From positions 1-64,000 of the forward strand of contig CALJAM010000015.1 of the NCBI GenBank assembly GCA_938027685.1: 64,000 bases of DNA, given 5' to 3'. The notes below the pieces were generated by a model. It searched no databases and had not been told where the DNA came from. It saw only the letters and a list, made by a program, of their open reading frames with translations. Below are positions 24,225 through 27,993 of this stretch, piece by piece (the first letter of the stretch is position 1; every line of letters begins with the position of its first letter). The translations under genes and the position numbers were made by a program. Source of the stretch: an uncultured Bryobacteraceae bacterium (lineage in GTDB: Bacteria > Acidobacteriota > Terriglobia > Bryobacterales > Bryobacteraceae).

Positions 24225-25449
24225 ATGGTCCGAAACAAGCAGAATGCACAGCGAGGGAGCTGGAAAGAGGAGATTCGGCATCCGCTGCGGCCGGACACGG
24301 ACCTACTGAACGCCCTGGTCGAGTAGGGGGTGCAGCAGGTGCTGGAAGCGGAGAGGGAACAGGCCCTGGGCACCGGGAAGGGTGAACGCACGCGGAACCG
24401 GCTAGGTTGCCGGTCGGGCTACTATAGCCGCAGCCTGGTCAGGCGGGTGGGCAAGCTCAAGTTGCGGGCGCCGCAGGACCGGGAGGGACGGTTCCGGACC
24501 GAAGTCTTCGAGCGCTAGCAGCGCAGCGAGAAGGCCCTGGTGACGGCGCCGGTGCAGACGTACCTGCCAGGGGCGTCCACGCAGACAGTGAAGGCCATCA
24601 CCCAGCAGTTGTGCGGGCACCAGCTCAGCTCGGCGACGATCCGCCGGATGGTCCAGCGGTTGGATGGGGAGTGGGAGAAGTTCGCGCGGCGGCTGGAGGA
24701 GCCCCACCCGTAGCTGATCCTGGACGCACGCTACCAGAAGGTACGGGAAGGCGGGATGGTGCGCAGCCAGGTGGGGCCGGCGGCCATCGGGGTAAACGGG
24801 GAAGGGCGGCGCCGCGTGTGGGCGGTAGAGTGGGCCAACTGGGAGAGCCCCCTCGAGCGGGAAGAGACGGCACACGGGACTGTGGCAGCGGGATCTGGAG
24901 GGGGCAGTTCGTGGCAGCGAGGATCATGCCGGCTGGCGGCGGGCCATCCAAGAGGTGCTACCGGAGGTGGTCCGGCCACGCTGCGGGGGGCACTCGCTGA
25001 GGACTGCGCTGGCCTACCTGCTGCGGAGAGCCGATGACGACTGACTCATGGAGCTGCGCTGGATTCGGGGCGCCCTCGGGGCCCGGCGGGGCCTGGAGGA
25101 GGCGCGGCAGGACGTGGCGACCTGGCTGGGGAGGCGGGCCAAGCGCTATCGCAAGCTGTGCCGTTGGGTGGAAGAGAACATCGGGGAAACGCTCAGCTTC
25201 CACCGTTTACCGCGGCAGCACCACAGGCACTTGAGGTCGAGCAACGTGCTGGAGCGGCTGATAGAAGAGCTCAAGCCGCAGAGGCTGGCGGTGCGGATCT
25301 CGCCTAACGCAGCGGCCTGCCTGCGGCTGATTCGAGCGCTGGCGGTGGAGATGCACGAGAGCCGGATCGAGGCGACGCGGTATCGGAGCATGGAGCCGCT
25401 GGCGGAGCAGAAGAAGGAGGTCCTACGGCGGCTAGGCGAGGCGGCGTGA
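24225..25449 (+). pseudogene. Decayed IS256-family (mutator type) transposase
   Basis: The remains of one transposase of about 400 residues are readable in two frames. The first frame begins MVRNKQNAQRGSWKEEIR and contains RSGYYSRSLVRRVGKLKLR, TVKAITQQLCGH and LILDARYQKVREGGMVRSQ (first catalytic Asp). It is broken by three TAG codons at 24324, 24516 and 24711. Near 24880 the reading moves to the next frame, continuing RRAIQEVLPE, then a TGA at 25042, then LRSSNVLERLIEELK with the catalytic Glu and ALAVEMHESRIEATRYRSMEPL at the end. Four stops plus a frameshift show the element is long dead. Confidence 0.88.
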
Positions 25450-26080: not shown

Positions 26081-26272
26081 TCACGGCAACAAGCCCCACG
26101 CTTTCAGCAGAGCGAAGAGTCCAACGCAGACGAACCCCAGCAGCACCGGCGCCCAGCGCCTCCACACGAGGAACAAGCCGAGGGCGATTGCGCCGGCAAA
26201 GTAGAAAAATTCGGGATAGCTCCGGTAAAGACAACCGATCAGGCGTTCGTCGGTCGGGCAGCCGGCGATCAT
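26081..26272 (-). CDS. Small membrane protein downstream of the radical SAM gene
   Basis: 63 residues from the ATG at 26272, which has GGGAGG six bases in front; a GTG at 26308 would add 12 residues. The N-terminus MIAGCPTDERLIGCLYRSYPEFF is polar, followed by two hydrophobic helices (FYFAGAIALGLFLVWRR and APVLLGFVCVGLFALLKAW). No family recognised. It follows the radical SAM gene by 67 bases on the same strand and could be co-transcribed. Two Cys residues lie in the soluble head. Confidence 0.6.
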   Translation of the reverse strand: MIAGCPTDERLIGCLYRSYPEFFYFAGAIALGLFLVWRRWAPVLLGFVCVGLFALLKAWGLLP

Positions 26273-26339: not shown

Positions 26340-27968
26340 TCAAGCCTCCAGCCGGATCAGCTCCGAAGGACGGCCGACGGGGACCGAATACTTGCGTTCG
26401 ATCTTTTCGCGGAAGCACGGGCCGGAGTTGTAGCTGCAGAACGGGTACAGCAGGCCGTTGGGCGCGGCGTAATGGATGATGCAGCGGCGGACACGCTCAG
26501 TGTCGTAGTTGTACAAGTCCATGAAGTGCATGCCCGCGACCATGAGCGTCTTGTACGAGAAGCCCTTCTTTTCAGCCTCGCCGCGACCGTAGCGCTTGTC
26601 CATAAGGCCTTGTAAGGTTTGGAGGAACTTCTGGAAGGTCAGACCCTCCGGAGCGCGGTCTTCATAGAAGTATTTGCGCAAGACGTTCCAGGCCTGGATC
26701 TTGGTGTAAAGCTTGACAGTCTGCTTCGTAGTTTTGCGGGCCAGCAGATCCATTTCCTGGAGCATGCCGCCGATGTCCACGAACCGCGTGACCGGGGTGC
26801 CGCGCTTCTTCGAATCCACGAACAGATAGGTACCCATCGAGCAGTGCGGGTGAGAAGTGAGCGTAGTGGTCAGCTCGCCGCGGATCGCACTGGCCAGGCG
26901 GGAGAAAGGCGCGACGCAGGAGAGCGGGAACCAGTCCTCGATCGGGTCGCAAATGCCGGTCTGCTCGTGAATGGCAAGCGCCACGTCGGCCATCGTAAAG
27001 CGCTTGGCTTCCAGCTCGCGCCGGGAAATACGACCGGTGAAGCTGACCGGCTGGTACGATATGGCGCTGACGACGTCAATGTTCTGGAGGGCGAGCTTCA
27101 GGATGTCGCCGATCTGATGATCGTTGAGTCCGCGAACGATCGTCGGCACAAAGCAGATCTTCATGCCGGCTTTGCGTACGTTTTCGATGACTTGCAGCTT
27201 GGCGTCGAGCAGCGGCCGGCCGCGCGTGCGCAGGTAAATGTCGTCGGTGACGCCGTCGAATTGCAGGTAAAGCGTATGCAGACCGGCCTCTTTGGCCCGC
27301 TGGGCGAACTCGAAATCGGTGAAGGCCAAGCCGTTGGTGGCGACCTGGATGTGCGAGAAGCCCATGTCCCGGGCCATCTCCAAAATCTCGAAGAAATTCG
27401 GGTGGATGGTGGGTTCGCCACCCGAGAACTGGATGAGCCGTCCGGCCACGGGTTGCTCGTTGCGCAGCACCTGGAGCATGCGCCGCACCTGCTCGAGCGT
27501 GGGCTCGTAGACCAAACCGGTGACGTTGGCGTTGGCGAAGCAGATCGGGCAGGTCAAATTGCAGCGATTGGTGAGATCGATGTTGGCCAAGGAGGTGTGG
27601 CTGGTGTGCATCGAGCAGAGGCCGCACTGGTCGGGACAGCGGCTAGCGTTGGGAATCTGCGGATTGCTCAGCCCGCGGTTGTCGCCGAAATTCCACTTTT
27701 CCATCTTGAGGTAAAGCCGGACGTCGCCGTAGTAGACGTCCTTGAAGTAGCCATGCTGCGGGCAGGTCTTCTCCATCATGACCTTGCCGCGCTCCTCAAA
27801 CACGCGGGCCTCGATCACCCGCACGCATTCCGGACAGAGAGACTGCGTGATCTTGGGCAATCCGCGGCGCAGGGGCTCGATGCGCGCGCCGGTGAAGGTC
27901 GTCTCGGGCTGGATGATCTGGTAGCCTTTGACCTTGGTGTCGAAGGGGGCGTAGGTGGTCGTACTCAA
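26340..27968 (-). CDS. Radical SAM protein of the MJ0619/tetraether-synthase (Tes)-like family
   Basis: 542 residues. The radical SAM motif C-x3-C-x2-C is at Cys136, Cys140, Cys143 (NRCNLTCPICFANAN), followed by QFSGGEPTIHP. An N-terminal zinc-ribbon/rubredoxin-like set (Cys45, Cys48, Cys69 in CPEC and CPQHG), a second cluster motif C-x3-C-x2-C at Cys111-Cys115-Cys118, and further Cys near the C-terminus (RRCIIHY, LLYPFCSYNSGPCF) give the multi-cluster layout of the MJ0619 family. Archaeal Tes joins lipid tails to make membrane-spanning tetraethers; bacterial relatives are proposed to make membrane-spanning lipids. The TTG start is supported by AGGAGGA seven bases upstream. Role here is inferred. 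Confidence 0.82.
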   Translation of the reverse strand: MSTTTYAPFDTKVKGYQIIQPETTFTGARIEPLRRGLPKITQSLCPECVRVIEARVFEERGKVMMEKTCPQHGYFKDVYYGDVRLYLKMEKWNFGDNRGLSNPQIPNASRCPDQCGLCSMHTSHTSLANIDLTNRCNLTCPICFANANVTGLVYEPTLEQVRRMLQVLRNEQPVAGRLIQFSGGEPTIHPNFFEILEMARDMGFSHIQVATNGLAFTDFEFAQRAKEAGLHTLYLQFDGVTDDIYLRTRGRPLLDAKLQVIENVRKAGMKICFVPTIVRGLNDHQIGDILKLALQNIDVVSAISYQPVSFTGRISRRELEAKRFTMADVALAIHEQTGICDPIEDWFPLSCVAPFSRLASAIRGELTTTLTSHPHCSMGTYLFVDSKKRGTPVTRFVDIGGMLQEMDLLARKTTKQTVKLYTKIQAWNVLRKYFYEDRAPEGLTFQKFLQTLQGLMDKRYGRGEAEKKGFSYKTLMVAGMHFMDLYNYDTERVRRCIIHYAAPNGLLYPFCSYNSGPCFREKIERKYSVPVGRPSELIRLEA

Positions 27969-27993
27969 GTCGCTTCCTCCTGCACGGTGCCCA

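Follow-up and report, generated by a model that had tools for sequence, protein, structure and literature searches.

Branched tetraethers are soil climate markers, widely used as proxies for past temperature and pH; to our knowledge, their makers and the enzymes involved are poorly known. Among the closest described systems is the archaeal tetraether synthase (Tes) MJ0619 of Methanocaldococcus jannaschii, also called GDGT-MAS, which has been solved (PDB 7TOL and 7TOM) and for which tail-coupling chemistry is reported. In Acidobacteriota, Zeng et al. (2022) listed Tes homologues in Koribacter versatilis (42% identity), Solibacter usitatus (40%) and Edaphobacter aggregans (32%) and proposed a possible role for them in branched GDGT (brGDGT) formation (PMC8941075). 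A brGDGT role for acidobacterial Tes is therefore not a new idea, and what is added here is a split of the family and an association with a PlsA-PlsR-like gene pair. In S. usitatus, Halamka et al. estimated brGDGT and brGTGT at 10-47% of the membrane and reported iso-C15 diethers, with iso-diabolic acid undetected; the genome has PlsAR and two Tes homologues, and the proposed route uses PlsAR and then one or both Tes homologues, while a route through iso-diabolic acid is kept possible (PMC10087280). K. versatilis, with its 42% homologue, reportedly makes tetraesters, which the same text elsewhere credits to S. usitatus (PMC13274423), so that having Tes does not by itself imply ether linkage. 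brGDGT is also made by E. aggregans, whose only Tes homologue is the one at 32% (PMC8941075), and some acidobacterial brGDGT thus probably arises without a true Tes. Bacterial Tes activity is stated to be unconfirmed (PMC11868695). The Mss of Thermotoga maritima also couples fatty-acid tails, and its models share the Tes architecture (PMC13274423). Since the T. maritima genome, one of 14 control genomes, gave no match at 1e-30 to NF045702, the NCBIfam Tes equivalog model, any relationship of Mss to Tes is a distant one at most. The TrsS model, used in an attempt to reach the Mss of T. maritima, gave no T. maritima match at 1e-30 and was set aside.

The gene described here lies in a window of 64,000 nucleotides, the whole stretch of DNA that was analysed, from an uncultured Bryobacteraceae bacterium. 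Its 542-aa open reading frame (P0001; 26340..27968, minus strand) starts with TTG, 7 nt downstream of a Shine-Dalgarno sequence, AGGAGG, read from the DNA (27976..27981, minus strand). The protein scored 587.7 bits on NF045702 (1.7e-176), above the curated equivalog cut-off of 450 bits, and Pfam placed a Radical_SAM domain and the HMPTM zinc ribbon (PF23545, 2.6e-19) on it. The closest solved chain was PDB 7tol (9.9e-140), that is MJ0619, to which the protein is 43.9% identical by BLAST. An AlphaFold model with a mean pLDDT of 87 was then compared with known structures using Foldseek; the predicted fold matched 7tol and 7tom with TM scores of 0.90 and 0.89 by target length and 0.82 by query, and the next match by E-value, MoaA, reached only 0.33 by query. 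An earlier note, made from this DNA alone, had called the protein a Tes-family radical SAM enzyme. NF045702, 7tol, Foldseek and the tree described below all agree with that call, and membership of the Tes/GDGT-MAS family is about as firm as sequence allows.

Alignment columns revealed that the residues of all four metal sites of MJ0619 are kept in the window protein, as are the SAM-loop Gln, Ser and Arg. The zinc-ribbon cysteines that had been noticed at the start of the protein belong to C45-x2-C48 (27825..27836; all residue coordinates are on the minus strand) and C69-x2-H72 (27753..27764), which by column check correspond to C9/C12 and C33/H36, the two halves of what is a rubredoxin-type iron site in MJ0619. 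The extra C-x3-C-x2-C reported at 111-118 was recovered as C111-x3-C115-x2-C118-x2-H121 (27606..27638), the N-terminal auxiliary [4Fe-4S] site with a probable histidine ligand, and the radical SAM motif at 136-143 as C136-x3-C140-x2-C143 (27540..27563), the radical SAM [4Fe-4S] site, from Pfam and conserved columns. The "Cys-rich tail" of the same reading was too strong a phrase for three cysteines and a methionine, all of which are present: C376 (26841..26843; MJ0619 C338), C496 (26481..26483; C455) and C511 (26436..26438; C470) occupy conserved columns and are likely ligands of the C-terminal auxiliary cluster, and M480 (26529..26531) is, by its conserved column and the published account, the labile Met ligand M439. 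That account names C9, C12, C33, H36, C73, C77, C80 and "a conserved histidine" as MJ0619 ligands, together with the CX3CX2C motif and Met439 (PMC9433317); from the alignment we infer that H83 would be this histidine and that C338, C455 and C470 would bind the C-terminal cluster. Y500 of the window protein is the conserved equivalent of Y459. Because the M439A and Y459 variants of MJ0619 keep activity (PMC9433317), conservation of M480 and Y500 says little about function. The N-terminal auxiliary cluster residues are found in 48/48 other bacterial and 22/28 archaeal Tes aligned and are thus not strictly universal; the six archaeal Tes from which they are absent resemble the bacterial paralogues in this respect.

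These paralogues form the second of two families into which the acidobacterial "Tes homologues" divide: true Tes, and a commoner relative without the N-terminal FeS cluster. The window genome (97% complete) has both, its paralogue being a 670-aa protein on another contig (C22; L039 11528-13540) that is 34-37% identical to Tes and scores 317 bits on NF045702, below the cut-off. Among 199 acidobacterial genomes, a Tes-model match at 1e-30 was found in 117 and a match above the cut-off in 28; in a set of 396 genomes, 39 were above it (21 of 211 genera). Within the order, a match at 1e-30 occurs in 138 of 150 genomes and a score above the cut-off in only 17, indicating that the paralogue is near-universal there. 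It shares with the window Tes the rubredoxin-type residues and is longer; all of the 21 aligned paralogues keep the radical SAM residues, the C-terminal cluster residues and the Met, and all 21 are without the N-terminal auxiliary cluster residues. We did not find this split described in the mostly open-access literature searched, and it may be in print elsewhere. Homology cut-offs in print are loose, at 20% identity (PMC8941075) or 30% (PMC11868695), and can merge two families with possibly different jobs. One genome of 2.1 Mb (G006) has two true Tes genes (L009 and L044).

We then placed the protein in a tree of 85 hand-picked rows built with IQ-TREE, which included 28 archaeal Tes, labelled Thermoplasmatota and Methanobacteriota and thus without TACK, Asgard or DPANN, and 8 paralogue rows. 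Omitted were 18 archaeal loci, to limit redundancy; L064 and L077 are absent, and several further Tes loci from Acidobacteriota, often second copies of one already represented, stand outside it. Archaeal Tes forms a single clade (100/99) with the window protein outside it, and on this ground a recent transfer from archaea was rejected. The paralogues form their own clade (100/100), separate from Tes. The window protein falls among bacterial Tes, apart from the paralogues, and the model, structure and tree results together set it apart from other radical SAM families; its clade holds 13 rows of Acidobacteriota titled Terriglobia, Bryobacterales and related names (95/96), support becoming 95/21 when a fourteenth row, L021, is added. 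With the tree rooted on the paralogues, bacterial Tes is paraphyletic and archaeal Tes is nested inside it; a single bacterial Tes clade was not rejected (AU p 0.0507). Among the best 80 matches listed, the nearest named records are metagenome-assembled genomes of Bryobacterales and other Acidobacteriota (66-72% identical), several of them from bog and palsa; a partial "Candidatus Solibacter sp." record (L074) is 67% identical, and outside Acidobacteriota the closest matches include Methanomassiliicoccales (50-52%). The K. versatilis and S. usitatus homologues belong to the same phylum and have identities to archaeal Tes in a similar range (42% and 40%); these figures and the partial record suggest that they are orthologues of the window protein.

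In two acidobacterial genomes, G203 and G330, the gene after true Tes has the same orientation and encodes a 1032-aa protein, and a PlsR-like gene comes next. The G203 protein comprises two BadF/BadG ATPase domains (PF01869) and DUF2229, and two PF01869 domains are described for Ger and PlsA relatives (PMC13274423); the partner gene is assigned as putatively PlsA-like by its architecture, namely two PF01869 plus DUF2229 and a PlsR-like neighbour. The same architecture beside a PlsR-like gene was found at L180 4181-7279 and in the window genome, where the PlsA-like copy (L193 8286-11390) and the PlsR-like gene after it form a pair on contig C8 (L193 8286-12670) that is not near Tes. Nor is PlsAR adjacent in most of the acidobacterial Tes loci examined. 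Three Phycisphaerae loci (L104, L116 and L120) have PlsA-like and PlsR-like genes upstream of Tes, the pair being recognised by tblastn only in L116 and L120 and also by Pfam in L104, where both parts lie within one reading frame. Locus L113 has a PlsR-like gene, and at L063, in the window's close clade, a PlsA-like fragment lies at the end of the contig and is oriented divergently from Tes. In all 25 loci compared that hold the PlsA-like gene, the PlsR-like gene adjoins it.

True Tes is also associated with this ester-to-ether reductase-like pair across genomes. In the window's family, with Tes presence defined as a match to P0001 at 1e-140, the ~1030-aa PlsA type occurs in 44 of 46 Tes-positive genomes (the exceptions being G543 and G646) and in 5 of 191 Tes-negative ones (G514, G579, G615, G616 and G645); the type was assigned by eye to 49 of 106 matched genomes, on pieces of 41-56% identity in ~1030-aa frames or fragments. 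Counted by genus, the figures are 30/30 and 1/46, with g252 excluded as its PlsA-like protein is 37% identical and longer. In a phylum sample of 181 genomes, a PlsA match at 1e-60 was found in 36 and the type at at least 50% identity in 15, of which 13, across 9 family codes, are Tes-positive; the exceptions are G005 and G035, the latter with only weaker hits. Only 13 of the 28 Tes-positive genomes carry that PlsA type. The other 15, a number that assumes all 28 were in the sample of 181, are six genomes of family code f4, four of g40 (G037, G085, G122 and G180), and G048, G056, G064, G069 and G101; the four g40 genomes and G069 have another PlsA-like type. Hypergeometric probabilities were 1e-39 by family genomes and 4e-11 for the phylum (N=199), both ignoring shared ancestry. 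The Tes label needs only about 5 changes in the family and yields 2 independent pairs with good support, too few for an independent-pairs test to help, and the family count is therefore in large part a product of common descent.

The reductase first chosen was another one, a PlsA-like gene beside the window genome's paralogue (L039 7936-11478). It had only a modest association with true Tes (16 genomes versus 3.7 expected; 6 genera versus 2.3, p 0.016) and was rejected, and the test of the G203-type PlsA was chosen after that result had been seen. Co-divergence of Tes and PlsA was likewise abandoned: distances correlated at r 0.75 over 22 pairs and were no longer significantly correlated after thinning to 12 rows (r 0.34, p 0.11). 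As separate observations, family code f4 contains a divergent acidobacterial Tes group (L031-L036, 472-498 bits) in which the G203-type PlsA was not found and which may use another substrate, and seven genomes of family code f23 have a longer PlsA-like protein (about 1450 aa or more), and none of the seven belongs to the 117 that match the Tes model.

The neighbourhoods of archaeal Tes differ from these. We counted neighbours at 80 named loci (46 archaeal, 34 bacterial) in flanks of at most 4 kb, often shorter. A geranylgeranyl reductase relative was present at 31/46 archaeal and 0/34 bacterial loci and a mevalonate-kinase-like GHMP kinase at 16/46 and 0/34, whereas PlsA-like and PlsR-like genes were each present at 0/46 archaeal and 4/34 bacterial loci; 29 of the 34 bacterial flanks held neither of the latter two. 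The ether-lipid genes that do occur beside Tes are of the type belonging to the Tes gene's own domain of life. At L076 (4001-7865) and similar archaeal loci, of Methanomassiliicoccales and others, Tes lies near both the geranylgeranyl reductase and the mevalonate-kinase-like gene. A search of the window genome for GGGPS (PF01884) gave none over the cut-off, two hits reaching 18.5-19.8 bits versus 23.9 needed, which makes an archaeal substrate unlikely.

Directly downstream of the window Tes is a 63-aa ORF, counted from its ATG, with hydrophobic stretches (26081..26272, minus strand). It begins 67 bases past the Tes stop, as had been stated before, when this small two-helix protein was put forward as a possible partner. 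A 61% identical copy follows Tes in G523 (L184), the one further genome of the genus that is Tes-positive. Among the loci searched, no other homologue at a meaningful E-value was found beyond the window's own sequence, and of 16 related Tes loci scanned, two have a small hydrophobic ORF downstream, both unlike the window's. Since the ORF was found beside Tes only within the genus, a general partner role is unlikely and was rejected, and the ORF probably does not belong to any conserved system. Farther downstream, about 0.9 kb from Tes, window positions 25048-25449 encode what looks like a remnant of a mutator-family transposase, its C-terminal portion (PF00872, 9.3e-21). An FHA-GGDEF type gene recurs near Tes at four acidobacterial loci (L053, L054, L045 and L058, with Pfam run on L053); as a recurring neighbour it looked non-specific and was dropped.

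Taken with the residues, the PlsA-PlsR association makes it fairly probable, in our judgement, that the window protein is a bacterial tetraether synthase that joins the iso-branched tails of PlsAR-type ether lipids to give a brGDGT-like product. Tail chemistry, ether linkage and product are all inferred. The reaction would follow that reported for MJ0619, whose metal-site residues are kept. By that analogy, two 5'-deoxyadenosyl radicals formed in succession would each abstract hydrogen from a saturated tail at its terminal carbon; a sulfur of the C-terminal [4Fe-4S] cluster would hold the first tail, and attack on it by the second radical would form the Csp3-Csp3 bond. The tails would be bacterial, most likely iso-branched C15 chains, and most likely ether-linked by a separate glycerol ester reductase of PlsA-PlsR type such as that encoded on contig C8, and the expected product would be a branched tetraether that spans the membrane and is of brGDGT type. 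Against this reading, PlsA-like or Ger-like proteins might instead make plasmalogens, a distinction that homology by itself does not settle (PMC11868695). The gene had been put forward before as a candidate enzyme for membrane-spanning lipids. Family membership and the PlsA-PlsR association favour that candidacy; a rival paralogue, and an E. aggregans that makes brGDGT with a 32% homologue, weaken it.

The paralogue is a rival for the iso-diabolic acid step since it is much commoner and in the same genome. On this explanation the C22-type protein would be the tail coupler for iso-diabolic acid and brGDGT, and the window protein would have a side role in ring closure or on another lipid. Its near-universality in the order and its retained radical SAM and C-terminal residues and Met are consistent with this, as are the occurrence of iso-diabolic acid in subdivisions 1, 3, 4 and 6 (PMC13274423) and the E. 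aggregans case. The C22 paralogue is also preceded by a second PlsA/PlsR-like pair, and in G523 that PlsA-like type is near the paralogue on the same contig. However, a PlsA-like gene of this kind was not seen in the few kb of sequence taken around 20 other paralogues, the protein is without the N-terminal auxiliary cluster residues, its model score falls well below the cut-off, and S. usitatus, with two Tes homologues, has no detectable iso-diabolic acid (PMC10087280). We regard this explanation as unlikely. The two proteins may cooperate or do related work, because in G511 and G265 the paralogue lies immediately upstream of true Tes in the same orientation, and in G121 and G073 it is separated from it by about 4 kb and about 6 kb; in the remaining Tes-positive genomes whose coordinates were inspected, the two are on separate contigs. 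On C22 (L039 6272-14632), the PlsA/PlsR-like pair, the paralogue and a further radical SAM protein stand in a row, and a 60% relative of the last lies beside the paralogue in G009 (L142).

Another explanation is that the window protein couples ester-linked (diacyl) phospholipids into iso-diabolic-acid tetraesters, the ether bond being formed later or never. Crystal density in MJ0619 was read as bacterial phosphatidic acid, with head groups bound non-specifically (PMC9433317), and tetraester formation by K. versatilis (PMC13274423) would fit. The co-occurrence and linkage of Tes with PlsA-PlsR-like genes speak against a diacyl substrate, as does S. usitatus, which is reported to have diethers and brGTGT and not iso-diabolic acid (PMC10087280), with the reservation that PMC13274423 elsewhere credits it with tetraesters. 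We consider ester coupling quite improbable. That the protein is a pterin methylase, the older reading of MJ0619 preserved in the Pfam name HMPTM for its N-terminal domain, is scarcely credible, since the MJ0619 crystallographers state that the methylase finding was not corroborated and that the long hydrophobic tunnel is unlikely for a pterin (PMC9433317).

Tetraether synthesis by the window enzyme thus remains our preferred reading, and it may extend beyond this genome. True bacterial Tes, the ~1030-aa PlsA and PlsR could form a three-gene core pathway for branched tetraethers, distinct from an ester-type route of the paralogue, a tentative proposal that we place just short of probable; equally tentatively, this core would be common to several families of Acidobacteriota and to Phycisphaerae. 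Separating true Tes from its look-alike and adding the reductase-like pair narrows a general suggestion down to defined sets of genes. If the proposal is true, the three-gene set would be a genomic marker for brGDGT producers, and the window gene is a candidate, open to testing, for the enzyme that makes the branched tetraethers of soils.
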